DNA of 56,553 nt, from assembly GCA_017479285.1 (NCBI GenBank), contig JAFVCL010000020.1:1-56553 (forward strand). Direction: 5' to 3'. The position numbers were made by a program, and so were the translations under genes. Positions 366 through 34,106 of the stretch are shown one piece after another; position 1 is the first letter of the stretch, and the number at the start of each line of letters is the position of its first letter. The DNA comes from Lachnospiraceae bacterium. GTDB lineage: Bacteria; Bacillota; Clostridia; Lachnospirales; Lachnospiraceae. A model generated the notes under the pieces. It saw only the letters and a program-made list of their open reading frames with translations. It was not told the origin of the DNA and made no database searches.

Positions 366-449
366 TGCGGAAGAAGGGACTTGAACCCTCACGGTATTGC
401 TACCACAAGATCCTTAGTCTTGCTCGTCTACCAGTTCCGACACTTCCGC
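366..449 (-). tRNA. tRNA-Leu (anticodon AAG)
   Basis: On the minus strand the 84-base sequence folds as a class II tRNA. It has acceptor GCGGAAG/CTTCCGC with discriminator A, a D arm containing ACTGGTAGACGA, an anticodon stem CAAGA/TCTTG with loop CTAAGGA (anticodon AAG, leucine), a long variable arm GGTAGCAATACC, and a T arm with GGTTCAAGTCC. CCA is not encoded. The two-way terminator lies directly downstream. Confidence 0.95.
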
Positions 450-11421: not shown

Positions 11422-11484
11422 GGTTACTCTCTCCTCTTTTTTTGCATCCGATTGATGTGTCTTATGTGAAAAACCTACATAATA

Positions 11485-11513
11485 ATTATGAATTTTGCGT
11501 ATTTATTTGTCAA
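11485..11513 (-). promoter_or_regulatory. Sigma-A promoter of the YD-lipoprotein operon, inside an inverted repeat
   Basis: On the minus strand, TTGACA (11508-11513) and CATAAT (11485-11490) have a 17-base spacer. An inverted repeat, GCGTATTT (11497-11504) with AAATACGC (11518-11525), straddles the -35 box. That placement would suit an operator. RBS GAGGAGA precedes the ATG. The promoter is divergent from the cobalamin-riboswitch promoter 30 bases away. Confidence 0.6.
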
Positions 11514-11543
11514 TTGCAAATACGCCTGGGACCATATTATTAA

Positions 11544-11572
11544 TTGAAATTGCCGGGGAAATGTGTTAAGAT
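11544..11572 (+). promoter_or_regulatory. Sigma-A promoter of the cobalamin-uptake operon
   Basis: TTGAAA (11544-11549), a 17-base spacer and TAAGAT (11567-11572) place a transcription start near 11579. That is just before the first paired strand of the riboswitch at 11583, the expected geometry. Confidence 0.6.
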
Positions 11573-11582
11573 TCTTCGTTGT

Positions 11583-11723
11583 GTGTGTAATATCCGAAGA
11601 ACCGCTTTTTTCACATCCTGTCGGGATTAAAAGCGATTCGGGGAACACGGAATGGAGTGGAAGTCTCCGCGAGTCGGTCACTGTGAAGCGCTGGATATCA
11701 GGTGGAGATATCAGATTACGCAC
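11583..11723 (+). ncRNA. Cobalamin (B12) riboswitch
   Basis: Several hallmarks fit the cobalamin riboswitch core. Closing helix P1 pairs GTGTGTAAT (11583-11591) with ATTACGCAC (11715-11723). A helix pairs CGCTTTT with AAAAGCG (11603-11635). The conserved GGGGAAC is followed by GGAG-TGGAAGT-CTCC (11654-11668), then GCGAGTCGGTCACTGTGAAG. The CACTGTGA box (11679-11686) and closing CAGATTAC (11712-11719) correspond to the family's ACTGT and CAGGAxACC segments. The loop before the closing strand is shorter than in the longest examples. It lies between a promoter and genes for a transcobalamin-like protein and an ECF importer, which supports the call. It was matched by eye, not with a covariance model. 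Confidence 0.8.
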
Positions 11724-11925
11724 AAGGAACTGCGTCATTCATTCGCAAACGGCACTTCGTGCCTTTTTGCGTATTGTGGTGGCGGTACACAAGGTACTGC
11801 GCCTTTCATTCGCAAACGGCACTTCGTGCCTTTTTGCTCATGAAGACGCAGTTCCGACTTCGTCGGTACGCCATCAGCATCCAAACGCTCCTCCCCATGC
11901 GAGCATGGTCGGAGCATTCGGACGC
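11721..11925. repeat. Hairpin-rich repeat array with two 33-bp exact copies
   Basis: A unit starting CACAAGG(A/T)ACTGCG occurs at 11721 and 11788 (period 67). Each copy contains the same 33 bases (11738-11770 and 11805-11837), which form the hairpin GCAAAcGGCAC-TTC-GTGCCttTTTGC. GGAACTGCGTC (11726-11736) is the exact inverse of GACGCAGTTCC (11845-11855). Further hairpins follow: CCGAC-TTC-GTCGG and CCATGC-GA-GCATGG. The last sits inside a 15-bp arm pair (11877-11891 with 11911-11925) whose three mismatches become G-U pairs only in minus-strand RNA. No protein is supported here, although short frames exist. Confidence 0.75.
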
Positions 11926-12023
11926 TGCCGGCTACCTTGTGCCGTAACATAGCGATAAGTCAGATACGTGGGTATTCACACTTGTTTTTGCCGGAACCGA
12001 AAACAAGAAAGGAAAATGAAAAA

Positions 12024-12419
12024 ATGAACATATTTATGAAGATTGTCCGCAGAGCCACTGCTCTTGCGGCTGTTTGCGTACTTGCATTCGGACTTACCGC
12101 ATGCGGCGCAAAGGGAAAGAAGATCACCATCGAGGTAACCGGACCCGACGGAGCAACGAGCTCTTACTCCGGAAAGACCGATGATGAGACTCTCTATGAT
12201 GCTATCAGCGATATCAATGGAGTAACCATCGACGGCTATGAAAGCGATTGGGGTTATTACATCACCACAGTAAACGGCGTTACAGCCGATTACGACGCTG
12301 ACGGAGCCTATTGGTCACTCTATGTGAACGGCGAATATGGACAGTACGGGGTATCCGAGCAGCCAATCACCGAAGGCGATGTTTACAGCTTCGTTTACGA
12401 GGTATATGCTGCACAGTAA
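12024..12419 (+). CDS. DUF4430 (transcobalamin beta-domain-like) lipoprotein
   Basis: A 131-residue lipoprotein with signal peptide and lipobox LTAC (C27). The rest (about 33-128) is one DUF4430 domain, the fold of the C-terminal beta domain of transcobalamin and intrinsic factor. Typical features are TLYDAISD, DWGYYITTVNG, AYWSLYVNG and ITEGDVYSFVYEVY. The ATG at 12024 was chosen because AAAGGA precedes it and the signal peptide follows directly; an earlier in-frame ATG at 11937 has neither. It is the first gene after the cobalamin riboswitch. It is probably anchored to the outer membrane face, where it could bind cobalamin or help load the ECF importer (inference). Confidence 0.8.
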   Translation: MNIFMKIVRRATALAAVCVLAFGLTACGAKGKKITIEVTGPDGATSSYSGKTDDETLYDAISDINGVTIDGYESDWGYYITTVNGVTADYDADGAYWSLYVNGEYGQYGVSEQPITEGDVYSFVYEVYAAQ

Positions 12420-12441
12420 CCCATAGCAATACCGTTCAACC

Positions 12442-12525
12442 GGCAGGCAAGTCCTGATACCACAGGCTTAAGCTTTCCCTTTGTTAAGACAGCAAGTCTC
12501 TCCACCTGCAAGAGAAAGGCCTGCC
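12442..12525 (+). other. Inverted repeat in the intergenic leader before the transcobalamin-like gene
   Basis: GGCAGGC (12442-12448) is complementary to GCCTGCC (12519-12525). The bases between contain smaller pairings, and the pair ends about 20 bases before the next ATG. It could be an mRNA processing or translation-control structure. No known RNA family is recognised. Confidence 0.3.
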
Positions 12526-12545
12526 ATGAACACCCTTAAAAGGAT

Positions 12546-14294
12546 ATGTTAAAACCGGAGTCCATGGTCGCAAAAATAAAACGCAATCTTCTGACCTGCA
12601 AAATAATTGTGGGTCTGTTGTCATTTTGCCTTTTTGCCGGATTATTCTCCGGTTTTGGCATCCCTTCCTTTGCTGCTGAAGCTGCTTCAGATACCTCTCC
12701 CTGCTCCCCCGAAGAAATACATAAGATAATAAGCGGTATTTACGCGTGGAAAATTGCTGAGGCAGGCGCTTATGATCTCCAGGCGCTTATAGATGAGGAA
12801 TTCTGCGCCGATCCTTTGAGCAGTACAAATCAAAACTACATTACCTCGATCATTCAGGATCCCTATATTTCTGCGGATCTTTCAAAATATATCAGTTCTC
12901 TGTCCGATGCTCTCGATAAGGGAGTCGCTTCCGACGAGGGAATCTTTCCTACAACACTTCAAAAATCCCTTGCAACCCTTGAGCTTTGTATCGAATACGA
13001 TCTCGGCAGAGAAAAAGCAAATATTTATTTTATCCCTGTAAAGGAATCAAAGCTTCCGGATTATGTAAACCAAAAAACCATCGACACCGCGCTGTTCCAC
13101 ACGATAGGCGAAAAAGGGATAATGTCTTATATCTGGGGACTTTATATGCTGTATGCATGGGATTTCTCCGAAAGCTCATACAGCCCGGAGGAAATAATAA
13201 ATACCCTTATCTCTATGCAGTGCAGTGACGGCGGATATACTCTCGCCGGAGCGGAAGGCGATATTGATGTAACCGCCATGACCCTGCAGGTGCTCGGAGA
13301 AAAATACAGGTGGCTTTTTTTGACCGGTACGCCCGGTGATCCGGACGGCGCTGCTTTATCAAAGTCTGTAAATGCTTCTCTACTATTCTTAAGCGAAAGA
13401 CAGCTGTCAACAGGCGATTATGAAAGCTTCGGAACAAGATGCAGCGAAAGCACCGCCCAGACCATCCTTGCCCTTAAAGCCCTCGGATTTGATATTTTTT
13501 CGCATCCGGACTTTTCCAAGGACGGCACAACACTTCTCGACGGACTTCTTTTATATTTGCAGGCGGATGGAGGCTTTTCGCATACCACGGACGGAATATC
13601 AAACGATATGGCAACTTCCCAGGCTCTGCAGGCTCTTGTTTCTCTTATTCCGGAAAAAACCGCAGTCCGGGATGTCGTCCCCGCTTCCGGAGTCGTCAAT
13701 GAGTCCTTCAGCGCGGAAAACGGGCACTTCCCGTACCGTATCTCAATCTGCATTGGCGTGTTTATACTGTCTGCCGGTGTGGGACTTTTCTTTACGCTCA
13801 AGAGAAAGAAGCCGATCCATCTTATTTCCGCTGTCGTTGCAGCGCTTTTAATATCAGGCGTTTTTCTTGTCCTTGATATCAGATCAAAGGAATCCTTTGA
13901 AAACGAAGAAAGCCGTATTCTTTTAAATGCCGGAGAAGAAAATGCCTGCTCCATTGAATTTACCATAAATGCAGACACCATCTCTGCAGATGAGATATAT
14001 CCCTTGACCACCCTCTATGTAGCGGAGGACTCAACCGTTTTTGATGTCCTTAAGGAGGTGTGCCGTACTGAAGGGATCCAGCTTGATTATGAGAGCAATT
14101 CCGTATACGGACTTGCTTATATAAAGGGGATTGACTCAATCTACGAGTTCGAGCACGGCAATCTTTCGGGATGGATGTACCGCGTCAACGGCATTACCCC
14201 CGGAATAGGCTGCGGATACTATAAAGTCAAAAACGGCGACAAGGTGGAGATTCTTTACTCCACCAACATAGGGAGGGATTTTGCTGATGATTGA
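12546..14294 (+). CDS. Transcobalamin-like membrane protein: alpha/alpha barrel + DUF4430
   Basis: The 582-residue protein has a signal peptide (about 15-45). A helical region (50-390) carries terpene-cyclase/prenyltransferase-type repeats: MQCSDGGYTL with DVTAMTLQVL (224-250), STGDYESFG with STAQTILALKALG (288-314), and LQADGGFSH with MATSQALQALVSL (338-367). Two membrane helices (398-418 and 425-445) enclose a short KRKK turn, and a C-terminal DUF4430 domain (about 468-575) has SGWMYRVNG and KNGDKVEILY. Topology therefore puts both domains outside. This is the two-domain plan of transcobalamin/intrinsic factor, with a membrane hairpin inserted between the domains. The start could instead be ATG 12564. 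The gene overlaps the ECF T gene, supporting a role in B12 capture (inference). Confidence 0.8.
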   Translation: MLKPESMVAKIKRNLLTCKIIVGLLSFCLFAGLFSGFGIPSFAAEAASDTSPCSPEEIHKIISGIYAWKIAEAGAYDLQALIDEEFCADPLSSTNQNYITSIIQDPYISADLSKYISSLSDALDKGVASDEGIFPTTLQKSLATLELCIEYDLGREKANIYFIPVKESKLPDYVNQKTIDTALFHTIGEKGIMSYIWGLYMLYAWDFSESSYSPEEIINTLISMQCSDGGYTLAGAEGDIDVTAMTLQVLGEKYRWLFLTGTPGDPDGAALSKSVNASLLFLSERQLSTGDYESFGTRCSESTAQTILALKALGFDIFSHPDFSKDGTTLLDGLLLYLQADGGFSHTTDGISNDMATSQALQALVSLIPEKTAVRDVVPASGVVNESFSAENGHFPYRISICIGVFILSAGVGLFFTLKRKKPIHLISAVVAALLISGVFLVLDIRSKESFENEESRILLNAGEENACSIEFTINADTISADEIYPLTTLYVAEDSTVFDVLKEVCRTEGIQLDYESNSVYGLAYIKGIDSIYEFEHGNLSGWMYRVNGITPGIGCGYYKVKNGDKVEILYSTNIGRDFADD

Positions 14295-15198
14295 CAGACT
14301 GCATCCCCTTACCATTCTTGTCTATTTTCTGTTTGCGGCTCTTACTCCCGCATTTTCCGGTAACCCTCTGTTCCATGCGCTTGCGTTCTTTACCGGTTTT
14401 ATAATGCTCTTTACCTGGAAAGATTTTTCCGGGATTTTAAAACAGCTGCCTTTTTATCTGCTCTTTTTTCTGGTGGTTTCACTGTTTAATCCATTCTTTT
14501 ATCACAACGGAAACACGGTGCTCTTCTATATGGCAGGAAGGCGCATAACTCTGGAAGCACTTTTATTCGGAGCCGACTCCGCTCTTATGGTCACAGGAGT
14601 ACTTATATGGTTCGAGAGTCTCTCCCACTATATGACAAGCGACAAGGTTCTCCTGCTATTCGGAAAAATCTCAACCAAAGCCTCAACGATAATATCCCTT
14701 GTACTTAGAATAATCCCCCATTACAGGGAGTACATAAGAAAATACAGGAAACACCAAAAGCTCCTCGGGCTGTATGGGGATGGCAGCTTTCTTGAAAGGC
14801 TCCGCGGGGAAGGAAAGCTCTTTGTCGGCTTCATAACATGGGCTCTGGAGCATTCCATGACAAGCGCGGATTCCATGACTGCAAGGGGATACGGTGTGGT
14901 TCGAAGGAAAAGCTACAGCTATTATAAAATAAGGACCCGGGATGTTTTGTTCTTACTCTTGGCGCTGGCGGCTACTGCTTTTTTATCCTTTTCCATATCC
15001 CGAAATGTCTTTGCTACGGTCTATTACCCCAATATCGTTTTATCCGAGCCCGGTGTGTTAAAAATCTCCGGCTTTATGGTTTACATAATTTCATCTTCGG
15101 TTATGCAGATATACTGTTTTACCGCTTTAAAAAAATTTGTAATACCCGGTAACGGATCCGGAAAAATACAACACATTCGGGAAATACAATCACAATGA
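14287..15198 (+). CDS. ecfT: ECF transporter transmembrane component T (CbiQ/EcfT family)
   Basis: EcfT couples the two ATPase domains to the substrate-binding S component in energy-coupling-factor vitamin importers. The 303-residue protein has several membrane helices and a cytoplasmic coupling region containing the typical Ala-Arg-Gly motif SADSMTARGYGVVRRKSY. ATG 14287 lies 10 bases after GGGAGG (14271-14276); TTG 14281, two codons earlier, is possible. It overlaps the end of the transcobalamin-like gene and overlaps the ATPase gene by four bases (ATGA). The tight packing implies one transcript with the B12-binding genes. Confidence 0.88.
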   Translation: MIDRLHPLTILVYFLFAALTPAFSGNPLFHALAFFTGFIMLFTWKDFSGILKQLPFYLLFFLVVSLFNPFFYHNGNTVLFYMAGRRITLEALLFGADSALMVTGVLIWFESLSHYMTSDKVLLLFGKISTKASTIISLVLRIIPHYREYIRKYRKHQKLLGLYGDGSFLERLRGEGKLFVGFITWALEHSMTSADSMTARGYGVVRRKSYSYYKIRTRDVLFLLLALAATAFLSFSISRNVFATVYYPNIVLSEPGVLKISGFMVYIISSSVMQIYCFTALKKFVIPGNGSGKIQHIREIQSQ

Positions 15199-16640
15199 AC
15201 ATACTTGAGATAAGCAATCTTAACTTCATATACAACACTTCCGGAACCCTAAACAATGGTCAATTACAAAATGTAAACGGCTCGAAGGATATTTTCAGCG
15301 CCCCCGCATTAAGGGACATAAATATCAAAATACCAAAGGGGAGTATAGTTACGGTCTGTGGACCTACAGGGTGCGGAAAATCCACCCTGCTAAAGCTTCT
15401 CAAGCAGGAGATAGCACCGGCAGGCGCTTTAAGCGGAGAGATCATTTTTGACGGAAAGCCTCTCTCCTCGCTCTCCGCCTTTGAACAGGGCTCCCGCATC
15501 GCGATACTGCTCCAGAACCCGGAGGATCAGATAGTTACTGACAAGGATTGGCACGAGCTGGCTTACGGGCTGGAAAATCTCGGCTATGAAAGGAGCAGTG
15601 TCGAAAACAGGCTTGCGGAAATGCTCTCCTTTTTCAGGCTCGAGCCCATAGCCAGGACAGATACCGACAAGCTCTCCGGCGGTCAGAAGCAGCTGGTGCT
15701 TCTCGCATCTCTTTTTGCTGTTTCACCGGAACTACTGCTGCTCGATGAGCCGATCTCACAGCTTGACCCCGAGACCTCCGAGCTTTTTATCGGGACTTTA
15801 AAAAGACTGCACGAAAAGCTCGGGACAACCATTATAATCGCAGAGCATAAGCTGAAAAGCCTGCTTCCTATCTCCGATTCGGTTATCGTTATGGATAAGG
15901 GCTCAGTCAAGGCATACGGGCCTTATAAAGAAGTAAAAACGGTGCTTGAGCAGACACTTCCGCCACTTATAAGCGAGAAGGATTCCTGCCCTGCTCCAGC
16001 TTCTCCCTCCCTCAGTCTTAAAAACATCTACTTCAGGTATTCATTAAAGTCCCCTGATGTACTCGAAAACCTCTGCGCGGATTTCCGGAAAGGGCTTATT
16101 TATGCCATATTCGGCTGTAATGCAGCCGGAAAGACAACACTGCTTAATGTTATTTCCGGGCTTTATAAACCCCAGGAGGGAAGGATAAAAACCCTCCAAA
16201 AGAAGCCTAAAATCGCCTATCTGCCCCAGAATGCCGACCTTCTTTTCATATCGGATACCGTTAAAGGCGAGCTTAAGGCTTCGGGTATCAGTCCCGGCAG
16301 GATTCCGGAGCATATAAGAAACCTCGACCCGGCAAGGAGCCCCTACGACCTCAGCGGAGGTGAAAAGCAGCTCCTCGCACTCACAAAACTCATCGGAAGT
16401 GATCCCGATATCATCCTTCTTGATGAGCCCACAAAGGGTACAGATGTTATTTTATCAAAAACCATTTTAAATGAGCTGAAAAGGTTTACAGAAAACGACA
16501 AAATCGTAATTATGTCAACCCACGATATTGCCTTCGCAAAATCCTCGGCAGATATGTGTGCCATAATGTCAATGGGCAGACTTACTGCATTTAAACCCGG
16601 TAAAGAATTCTTTGAGTCGAACCGGCTGTACAGGATTTGA
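15195..16640 (+). CDS. ecfA: ECF transporter ATP-binding protein with two ABC ATPase domains
   Basis: The 481-residue protein holds two complete ABC ATPase domains. Domain 1 has Walker A GPTGCGKST, signature LSGGQKQ and Walker B LLLLDEPISQLDP. Domain 2 has Walker A GCNAAGKTT, signature LSGGEKQ and Walker B IILLDEPTKGTD, each followed by a switch histidine (AEHK, STHD). Fused EcfA/EcfA' subunits are known in dedicated (group I-like) ECF importers. It sits between the T and S components, so this seems to be a dedicated vitamin importer rather than the shared ECF module. The domain-1 N-terminus has a 25-residue insertion before Walker A. Confidence 0.92.
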   Translation: MNILEISNLNFIYNTSGTLNNGQLQNVNGSKDIFSAPALRDINIKIPKGSIVTVCGPTGCGKSTLLKLLKQEIAPAGALSGEIIFDGKPLSSLSAFEQGSRIAILLQNPEDQIVTDKDWHELAYGLENLGYERSSVENRLAEMLSFFRLEPIARTDTDKLSGGQKQLVLLASLFAVSPELLLLDEPISQLDPETSELFIGTLKRLHEKLGTTIIIAEHKLKSLLPISDSVIVMDKGSVKAYGPYKEVKTVLEQTLPPLISEKDSCPAPASPSLSLKNIYFRYSLKSPDVLENLCADFRKGLIYAIFGCNAAGKTTLLNVISGLYKPQEGRIKTLQKKPKIAYLPQNADLLFISDTVKGELKASGISPGRIPEHIRNLDPARSPYDLSGGEKQLLALTKLIGSDPDIILLDEPTKGTDVILSKTILNELKRFTENDKIVIMSTHDIAFAKSSADMCAIMSMGRLTAFKPGKEFFESNRLYRI

Positions 16641-16762
16641 ATTATGTAAATCGCTTTTTACAATGAATAACCTGTGGTTTTTATTCCCTGTATGGCAGTT
16701 TAAGATAACACGCATAATTCTATTTTTCTGATTCAAAGCAGATTGTTCTTGGGATAGTTGAT

Positions 16763-17431
16763 ATGGTAATAGAAAAATATTACATTTTAATATCTCTTTT
16801 TCTTATCACGGGTGCCCTGGTGATCACTTTTATGCGCCTTGATAAAAGAAACACAGGTGTCAGAAGACTTACTTTAATTTCTGTTATGACAGCGTTGTCA
16901 ATCGTCAGCCGCTTTGTATTTGCTGCATTTCCTGCCTTTAAACCAATGTCAGCTATTGTAATTATGACAGGCGTGTATCTTGGCGGTGAGGCAGGTTTTT
17001 TATGCGGATGTCTGACTGCTTTTATCTCGAATTTTTACTTCGGACAGGGTCCCTGGACCCCTTTTCAGATGGTTTCCCTCGGTCTTATCGGTCTGCTGGC
17101 CGCCCTTATTTTTAAGGGCAGGGATTTCCTCGTCCCGGGGAGGAAGAAGAATAAACACGGTATCGAAGAAAAGGCGAAATATTTTAGTCTTAAGCTTCCT
17201 CTTCTTTGTCTCTACGGGCTTTTATGCGGAGTATTCTATTCTCTTTTTCTCGATACATGGACAATGCTCTGGACTTACGGCACCCTGAACCTCGAAGGTT
17301 ATCTGGCAACAATAGCCCTGGCAACCCCCTATACGATACTGTATGCCGCTTCAAATGTCATATTCCTGCTGATTTTCGAGCCCGTCTTCGGAAAAAGACT
17401 CGGCAGGATAATTTCAAAATACAGGATCTGA
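16763..17431 (+). CDS. ECF transporter substrate-binding (S) component, probably for cobalamin
   Basis: The 222-residue integral membrane protein has about six helices. It has an S-component-like core: RRLTLISVMTALSIVSRF, then AFKPMSAIVIMTGVYLGG, GFLCGCLTAFISNFYFGQGP and WTPFQMVSLGLIGLLAAL. The proline/glycine turns and the F-x-P/S loop are typical of ECF S components, which bind the vitamin and topple in the membrane. The substrate is inferred from the riboswitch and the transcobalamin-like partners, not from residues. It lies 122 bases after the ATPase gene, so a separate promoter is possible. Confidence 0.8.
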   Translation: MVIEKYYILISLFLITGALVITFMRLDKRNTGVRRLTLISVMTALSIVSRFVFAAFPAFKPMSAIVIMTGVYLGGEAGFLCGCLTAFISNFYFGQGPWTPFQMVSLGLIGLLAALIFKGRDFLVPGRKKNKHGIEEKAKYFSLKLPLLCLYGLLCGVFYSLFLDTWTMLWTYGTLNLEGYLATIALATPYTILYAASNVIFLLIFEPVFGKRLGRIISKYRI

Positions 17432-33679: not shown

Positions 33680-33712
33680 TAATGAAAAACAACCCCACGG
33701 TTTCCCGTGGGG
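33680..33712 (-). terminator. Terminator of RNase P RNA
   Basis: On the minus strand, CCCCACGG-GAAA-CCGTGGGG (33693-33712) is an 8-bp stem with a GAAA tetraloop, followed by TTGTTTTTC. It sits directly after the rnpB 3' end. The rest of the gap to 33514 is AT-rich with no gene seen. Confidence 0.85.
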
Positions 33713-33716
33713 CGCT

Positions 33717-34106
33717 CGGCAGAACTGTAAGCCGGGTTATGTCTGGGAGCAAAGCTCCCCGGGTGATCATCTATCTAGTACGGTCGTTACCGACCGCATC
33801 AAGCGACCTACCTGAAGGATGGACGGGCAGCCCGTAGCCCTTCTGCTTGGTCTTGCTTCGGATGGAGTTTACACGGCGCGTATGTTACCATACGCCCGGT
33901 GGTCTCTTACACCACCTTTTCACCCTTACCTATAGCCGGCTTGAGACTAACTCAATAAGCTATAGGCGGTTATTCTCTGTTGCACTGGTCTGGGAGTCAC
34001 CTCCACCGGATGTTATCCGGCATCCTGCCCTATGAAGCCCGGACTTTCCTCACCCCTGAAGGGGCTTTCGCACCTGCAGGGCCGCGACCACCTGTTCTGC
34101 GTACAT
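33717..34106 (-). ncRNA. rnpB: RNase P RNA, bacterial class A
   Basis: RNase P RNA is the catalytic RNA that removes tRNA 5' leaders. On the minus strand the conserved cores are clear: GGTGAGGAAAGTCCGGGCT near the 5' end, GTAAGGGTGAAAAGGTGGTGT with TAAGAGACCACCG in the middle, and TAGATAGATGATCAC with ACATAACCCGGCTTACAG at the 3' end. The outer helix P1 pairs GCAGAAC (34094-34100) with GTTCTGC (33719-33725). Ends are estimated from P1 and the promoter. Confidence 0.96.

Follow-up and report, generated by a model that had tools for sequence, protein, structure and literature searches.

A putative corrinoid scavenging locus with DUF4430 receptor-like proteins, a CbrT-type ECF importer and a divergent riboswitch-like leader in a Lachnospiraceae bacterium

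In most accounts, energy-coupling factor (ECF) importers work without a separate binding protein. The question raised by a locus of a Lachnospiraceae bacterium (assembly GCA_017479285.1, contig JAFVCL010000020.1) is whether such an importer may work with a receptor of its own, and for which ligand. The locus lies at 11544-17431 of the window, the whole 56,553-nucleotide stretch analysed (positions 1-56,553 of the contig), in a genome (G000) of 2.67 Mb that is 87.5% complete. It encodes a DUF4430 lipoprotein, a transcobalamin-like protein of 582 residues, and a putative T component, a double ATPase and an S component of an ECF importer. A first interpretation, made from the letters alone (the sequence-only reading), had taken the locus for a vitamin B12 capture system with a dedicated ECF importer. 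The follow-up analysis strengthens this proposal: the S component is of CbrT type, the leader holds a covarying element resembling adenosylcobalamin (AdoCbl) riboswitches, the system and the canonical cobalamin riboswitch family RF00174 are reciprocally distributed within the genus, and the genome has a B12-binding domain while no CbiC was found in it. We regard it as very probable that the locus is a corrinoid (vitamin B12 family) scavenging system, comprising DUF4430 receptors, a CbrT-type ECF importer and an AdoCbl-type riboswitch.

Gene content and the S component

The genes and protein features of the locus are as follows.

12024..12419, + strand: lipoprotein, 131 residues, lipobox LTAC (open reading frame and Pfam; lipobox read by eye)
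12189-12398, + strand: DUF4430 (beta-grasp) domain of the lipoprotein (Pfam)
12546..14294, + strand: transcobalamin-like protein, 582 residues, with N-terminal signal segment, toroid-type repeats (about residues 50-390), membrane hairpin and DUF4430
13740..13871, + strand: membrane hairpin, residues 399-417 and 424-442, with KRKK turn (hydropathy)
14028..14261, + strand: DUF4430 / transcobalamin-like C-terminal (SLBB) domain of the 582-residue protein (66.9 bits)
14281..15198, + strand: EcfT-like transmembrane protein, TTG at 14281, in-frame ATG at 14287, one ARG motif
15195..16640, + strand: EcfAA, double ABC ATPase, 481 residues, with two Walker A, two LSGG and two Walker B motifs
16763..17431, + strand: EcfS, CbrT-type S component (Pfam and PDB profile match)

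Profile comparison identifies the S component as a homologue of CbrT, whose role in ECF import of B12 is proven. A profile built from 21 S proteins of this and related operons matches 6fnp_A in the PDB at E 2.6e-18 (residues 4-176 of 182), well ahead of 4hzu_S, the second solved chain, at 5.5e-4. The window protein by itself retrieves 6fnp_A (E 5.2e-7) as the only S component listed. Entry 6FNP is ECF-CbrT of Lactobacillus delbrueckii, reported to carry cobalamin and cobinamide, with hemin not competing (PMC5997447). In Pfam the S component matches PF07155 (36.4 bits, cut-off 26.7) and PF12822 (35.4 bits), and in NCBIfam it reaches 26.4 bits against TIGR04518 (folT), far under the cut-off of 60. 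The family rows thus read ECF_trnsprt, ECF-ribofla_trS and a weak folT, with no CbiM or CbiN in either database. The EcfT-like protein scores 17.8 bits against CbiQ, below the cut-off of 25, and occupies a conserved place beside the ATPase gene in related operons.

All five open reading frames lie where the sequence-only reading had put them. Its description of the genes as mostly overlapping applies to two junctions, those of the transcobalamin-like gene with EcfT (14 bases) and of EcfT with EcfAA (4 bases), while the remaining two are gaps of 126 and 122 bases. DUF4430 had been correctly anticipated in the lipoprotein (39.1 bits) and in residues 495-572 of the 582-residue protein (63 bits; cut-off 23.8), and these are the only two matches in the window genome. 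The dual ATPase indeed has two complete halves, by Pfam and by motifs, and the S component is named by Pfam ECF S families.

The leader RNA and the distribution of the system

Upstream of the lipoprotein gene, the leader is laid out as follows.

11544..11572, + strand: promoter-like site TTGAAA-17-TAAGAT with extended -10 TG (9/12 consensus match)
11577..11712, + strand: 5' half of the riboswitch-like element, with P2 5' strand, P3, P4 5' strand, P5, CACTGTGA core and P6 with GGTGGA hairpin
11713..11950, + strand: about 240 bases inserted into the P6 arm, including two GGCACTTCGTGCC-TTTTT hairpins
11951..12007, + strand: 3' half of the element, with P6 3' strand, AAGTCAGATACGTG (P4 3' strand), P2 3' strand and terminal hairpin CTTGTTTTTGCCGGAACCGAAAACAAG
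12008..12014, + strand: Shine-Dalgarno-like AAAGGAA directly 3' of the terminal hairpin (sequence)

The sigma-70-like site at 11544-11572 agrees with the promoter proposed earlier and is kept in the aligned leaders of the window and six genus orthologues; its score is weak alone, the region holding 16 promoter-like sites versus 9.8 in shuffles. A cobalamin riboswitch had been placed at 11583-11723. A divergent, split element of AdoCbl type can be recognised there, and its 3' half (11951-12007) lies outside that interval. In the seven-leader alignment a conserved block, GGGGAACACGGAATGGAGTGnAAgTCTCCGCGAGTCGGTCACTGTGAAGC, is followed after 22-261 bases by GATAAGTCAGATACGTG and a hairpin; in the window these blocks occupy 11640-11689 and 11951-12007, the hairpin directly preceding the ribosome-binding site. 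The core motifs stand in order and are enclosed by covarying helices, as in the cobalamin clan in the wide sense. On this comparative basis the leader element is called a divergent AdoCbl-type riboswitch with a predicted response to ligand, and the terminal hairpin and ribosome-binding site would form its expression platform.

In the core alignment of seven sequences, each of the 23 named pairs is standard throughout, and four show double changes. None of 500 shuffles reaches the observed pairing, double changes or covariation, and 12 of 500 reach the further pair types. A second alignment of nine sequences, six of them from outside the model, has double changes in 11 of the 23 pairs (0/500 shuffles; further pair types, 38/500), alignment A7 having been fitted to the covariance model, which favours structure. 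Support for P2 comes from an assignment test, in which its strands pair best with their own partners (15 of 5040 assignments are equally stable), and P2 was left out of the covariance model, R1. RNAalifold on the full 180 columns returned an alternative 5'-strand pairing with a covariation term of -0.27 kcal/mol, and the structure named for the family was tested instead. A candidate 3' box, ATCAGATTACGC at about 11711, was rejected, the conserved 3' box being located at 11951. The insert was considered as a mobile repeat and has no second copy in its own genome. Its hairpins at 11751 and 11818 are terminator-like, and orthologues have no insert or inserts of other lengths. The minus strand of the insert weakly resembles Clostridiales-1 RNA (30.9 bits; threshold 48).

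Among 31 genomes of the genus, the 582-residue protein and the S component occur in an identical set of nine. RF00174 is over its cut-off in 21, and overlaps with the system only in G267 (p=4.7e-5). The system and RF00174 are nearly mutually exclusive within the genus. Eleven of the 21 RF00174 sites precede a DUF4430 protein homologous to the window lipoprotein; in ten of these operons a second membrane protein follows, and the eleventh is cut by a contig end. The DUF4430 proteins of these sister species, in those read by eye, have an N-terminal anchor without lipobox. For the second membrane protein of L090 (8211-9620), which has no Pfam match, 6fnp_A is the sole solved relative (E 1.1e-4), and the remaining nine are homologous to it (blastp). 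These sister species make do with an anchored DUF4430 protein plus a CbrT-like protein, which suggests that the simplest form of the receptor is a DUF4430 protein, to which the toroid protein has been added.

The other ten RF00174 sites stand before other genes in nine cases and before no readable gene in one. Four of the nine were checked by Pfam, giving CbiK in three and Peripla_BP_2 with FecCD in one. The CbiK cobalt chelatases under RF00174 (L096 4178-5422, L099 5464-6786, L104 332-1588) have, by eye, a lipoprotein-like signal and are so apparently extracellular; in L099, CbiK is followed by a member of the periplasmic-binding-protein family (Peripla_BP_2).

R1 finds matches in eight of the nine genomes of the genus that have the system and in none of the 22 that lack it; seven of the eight supplied model sequences, so that within the genus only G251 is independent. 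The G251 match lies on a contig other than that of the transcobalamin-like gene, which stands at the very beginning of its contig, as it does in G267, the ninth genome with the system. Beyond the genus, R1 matches upstream of the same operon in L043, from another genus (53.9 bits; one of 33 family loci), whose genome has no RF00174 match. It also matches upstream of L115, L116, L117, L132 and L165 (51.6 to 99.7 bits), and weakly of L146, among 76 loci of named genomes, that is, 79 minus three repeats of genus loci, some others being contigs already used. The best identity of these five to the 582-residue protein is 27-33%. The matches before the same operon are as follows.

L115 5188-5314; L116 5228-5354; L117 4965-5089: divergent riboswitch-like element (R1)
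L043 4555-4672; L132 4527-4648; L165 4865-4973: divergent riboswitch-like element (R1)

In the wider family, RF00174 lies within 2 kb upstream on the same strand in 11 of 32 operons, where about 0.02 would be expected; the expectation derives from a genome total of about 109.7-113 Mb and stays near 0.02 across it. The 32 operons are the loci with ECF and transcobalamin-like genes among 40 (L034, L035, L038, L047, L048, L049, L060 and L062 were dropped), and in L036 and L057 the transcobalamin-like gene is 3' of the ECF genes. The RF00174 cut-off was 31.5 bits, and lower scores, such as 27.9 bits before L070, were not counted.

The system is widespread in part. One or both domains of the 582-residue protein are matched in 60 of 250 sampled genomes of the family. 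An alignment-based scan of named genomes found at least 578 relatives, and the best 79 were taken as the named loci; the same scan with a single protein query gave no matches. All four genes are present in 65 of these 79, with the ECF genes first in five. Among the 79 are loci of Ruminococcus flavefaciens FD-1 and of numerous Clostridia from rumen and gut. Elsewhere in the window, Rfam identifies an RNase P RNA of class A at 33712-34103 (- strand) and a tRNA gene at 366-449 (- strand).

The receptor-like proteins

The sequence-only reading had described terpenoid-cyclase-like repeats in the 582-residue protein. Pfam gives no such hit in the window protein itself, but the family profile matches terpene cyclases of solved structure (whole-sequence E 2.9e-7, profile positions 193-341; 1.3e-4 for the best stretch). 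PF00432 is found at E up to 10 in 10 of the 14 members of the family alignment A1 (best 9e-6), the window protein not among them; the PF00432 scores listed lie below the cut-off. On these profiles an alpha6/alpha6 barrel is predicted for the N-terminal part. DUF4430 is present in all 14 (L083, with a stretch of N in its transcobalamin-like gene, was left out of A1). Toroid and DUF4430 occur together, fused or neighbouring, in 30 of the 32 operon loci (blastp, Pfam), the exceptions being L069, which lacks the pairing, and L036, where the two occur only apart.

The hydrophobic stretches at residues 399-417 and 424-442 bear out the membrane segments expected between the two domains. Each of the 13 fused proteins examined has, between toroid and DUF4430, a pair of hydrophobic segments connected by a basic turn. 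Nineteen operons encode the two parts separately. In 15 of them a segment is predicted close to the C-terminal end of the toroid protein. Of the 19 DUF4430 proteins, judged by eye, 14 start with a plain anchor and five with a lipoprotein signal. As the separate proteins of relatives carry matching anchors, the most likely origin of the hairpin is that a C-terminally anchored toroid protein was fused to an N-terminally anchored DUF4430 protein, which would leave both domains outside. The arrangement had been called unusual; it now looks like two anchored proteins joined that relatives encode as separate genes. In five of the 15, the toroid proteins of L040, L042, L045, L051 and L065, a C-terminal LPKTG-like stretch or TGD is followed by a hydrophobic stretch and a basic tail (by eye), and these toroids may be linked to the wall by sortase-type anchoring instead of a membrane segment.

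The EcfAA tree needs two changes between the fused and split states, since the fused L053 and L072 fall inside an otherwise split group; the fork of L053 and L072 is open and several branches are long, and the well-supported branches are compatible with a single change. One genome, G098, has both a split (L056) and a fused (L072) toroid/DUF4430 operon, on two contigs.

His346 of the 582-residue protein, within GGFSHT, is invariant in all 14 aligned proteins. Transcobalamin uses a histidine as cobalt ligand, and by this analogy His346 may be a candidate for the same role.

Corrinoid import weighed against alternatives and known systems

A B12-binding domain occurs in all 31 genus genomes at E 0.001, and over cut-off in 30. 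In the window genome it lies in an 835-residue frame, which by size only could be methionine synthase. CbiC was not found in the window genome at its 87.5% completeness, and the other cbi/cob genes were not searched for. Within the genus, CbiC is found in 8 of 31 genomes, one of them with the system; it was not found in seven of the other eight genomes that have the system, and the association between system and CbiC is not significant (p=0.38). Because a B12-binding domain is present and no CbiC was found, the host probably uses corrinoid without making it.

We infer the ligand, its binding and hand-over, and the direction of regulation to be as follows. The lipoprotein and the hairpin-fused toroid/DUF4430 protein would capture corrinoid at the outer face of the membrane, where the toroid and the beta-grasp domain probably close around it in the manner of transcobalamin and intrinsic factor. 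By a hand-over that is pure conjecture, the ligand would reach the CbrT-type S component and then move inward with the help of the system's own EcfT and double ATPase. The riboswitch would lower expression when corrinoid is plentiful, probably at the start of translation, since the terminal hairpin abuts the ribosome-binding site. The chances appear evenly balanced that this is an ECF importer with its own receptor, in which a tethered transcobalamin-type clasp, split or hairpin-fused, hands cobalamin to a CbrT-type S component. To judge from the sequences, a single genus ranges from the pair of anchored DUF4430 protein and CbrT-like protein up to the full clasp with its motor, as if built up stepwise. 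If the receptor function holds, the animal carriers would be related to it, in line with the proposal of Burroughs et al.

The ligand might be an incomplete corrinoid or a precursor, such as cobinamide or alpha-ribazole, rather than a complete cobamide. CbrT carries cobinamide as well (PMC5997447), and with no CbiC found salvage is plausible; the host nevertheless has a protein with a B12-binding domain, and the data do not separate complete from incomplete corrinoids, whose uptake could coexist. We consider import of precursors in place of complete cobamides possible, if on the unlikely side. The toroid, for its part, may bind cell wall or polysaccharide or act as an enzyme, leaving DUF4430 alone to handle the ligand. 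Its profile resembles terpene cyclases, 22 of the 31 genus genomes have no match to the 582-residue protein at E 1e-5, and ten RF00174 operons of the genus hold only the DUF4430 and CbrT-like proteins; the pairing of toroid with DUF4430 in 30 of 32 operon loci makes such a separate role for the toroid rather doubtful.

Ligands outside the corrinoids fare less well. The S families are named for riboflavin or folate (PF07155, PF12822, TIGR04518), and an ECF system importing heme has been reported in Staphylococcus lugdunensis (PMC7299338). TIGR04518 is, however, far under its cut-off, CbrT is the sole solved S component found with the single sequence, and the leader and its relatives are of cobalamin type, so that heme, riboflavin or folate is a very improbable ligand. 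Cobalt importers too can be under cobalamin riboswitches, and the EcfT is weakly CbiQ-like at 17.8 bits; a CbiMNQO-type cobalt or nickel importer with the DUF4430 proteins as metal accessories could be imagined on these grounds. Yet the S component matches CbrT, neither Pfam nor NCBIfam returns CbiM or CbiN for it, and a host in which no CbiC was found would gain little from cobalt for corrin synthesis. We give this last explanation the least credence of all.

Several results weigh against corrinoid scavenging by a riboswitch-controlled, transcobalamin-like system. No Rfam cobalamin family reaches threshold in the 56-kb window, none matches 11450-12030 or 11540-11740 even at E up to 10, and RF00174 at its gathering threshold has no match anywhere in the window genome. 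The RF00174 match that the sequence-only reading had expected at 11583-11723 was thus not obtained; Rfam presumably misses the window element because it is divergent and interrupted by an insert. For RF01482 (AdoCbl, same clan; gathering threshold 50 bits) the window element gives no match, and the two insert-free orthologues tested score below the threshold (L084, 19.1 bits; L088, 21.2 bits, E 0.078, full model); no other Rfam cobalamin family reaches threshold in these two either. Further afield, R1 has no match in 70 of the 76 named loci and 32 of the 33 family loci, RF00174 over cut-off is missing from the 2 kb upstream of 21 of the 32 family operons, and a scan of 15 loci with all of Rfam found no cobalamin riboswitch at threshold, many operons being without a known leader. 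On the protein side, PF01122, which we take to be the eukaryotic cobalamin-binding family, is not among the three families returned for the window protein, nor among the 25 listed of 65 for the alignment. The DUF4430 profile retrieves no transcobalamin from the PDB, its best match being at chance level (E 0.21). Finally, a 2009 survey gives BtuFCD homologues for over 90% of the prokaryotes that take up B12 without synthesizing it (PMC2667541).

Should corrinoid scavenging by this system be correct, a B12 importer could be named for many rumen and gut bacteria of this kind, B12 transport in numerous gut genomes being described as an open problem by Rodionov et al. 2019 (PMC6593275). A bacterial counterpart of transcobalamin would also become available for structure solving, and an ECF transporter with a dedicated receptor would be shown. 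To judge from the leader comparison, a clade of cobalamin riboswitches escapes the Rfam models, and B12 regulons in these bacteria may be under-counted.

Set beside known riboswitches, the window leader type shares with RF00174 and RF01482 the motifs GUGnAAnUC, CACUGUGA and AGUCAGAUAC (presumably their usual names), in that order, and the alignment of an insert-free orthologue to RF01482 has matching arms and terminal hairpin. It differs from both in scoring below threshold, in P6 inserts of up to about 240 bases and in the CACG/CGUG of P4. With ECF-CbrT the locus has in common a homologous S component and a predicted ECF T/A/A' motor. The purified CbrT complex, in contrast, is reported to transport B12 without an extracellular receptor (PMC5997447), whereas here two receptor-like proteins and the motor are encoded with the S component. 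The locus protein resembles animal transcobalamin and intrinsic factor in pairing a predicted alpha/alpha toroid with a DUF4430-type beta-grasp domain, DUF4430 being named in the C-terminus of TCN proteins (PMC4350170). The locus protein differs from them in being anchored to the membrane by an interdomain hairpin, or encoded by two genes in relatives, and in having no PF01122 match among the families listed for it.

The closest precedent is that of Burroughs, Balaji, Iyer and Aravind 2007 (PMC1796856), who describe bacterial proteins that join a transcobalamin-like SLBB domain to a toroid. These are widespread among low-GC Gram-positives, and their operons include homologues of CbiO and CbiQ and, in many cases, another SLBB protein. 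The hosts usually lack key enzymes of B12 synthesis, and the authors predict B12 scavenging and propose transfer to animals (PMC1796856). In our own reading, the SLBB domain of their clade is the DUF4430 domain. The present locus shares with those operons an SLBB domain fused to a predicted toroid, the second extracellular SLBB protein, the CbiO-like ATPase and a CbiQ-like membrane protein, the last recognised by a sub-threshold score and its place, and its host resembles theirs in that no CbiC was found. In the open-licence literature we found no experimental follow-up of the prediction and nothing on a link to CbrT, on the leader or on the hairpin; the parts of the 2007 paper that describe the operons (PMC1796856) name no CbrT-type S component, riboswitch or membrane hairpin, which are added here. 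The core idea of a B12 scavenger is thus 19 years old, and what is new here is the CbrT-type S component, the divergent split riboswitch-like leader, the reciprocal distribution of RF00174 and the likely origin of the hairpin by fusion.

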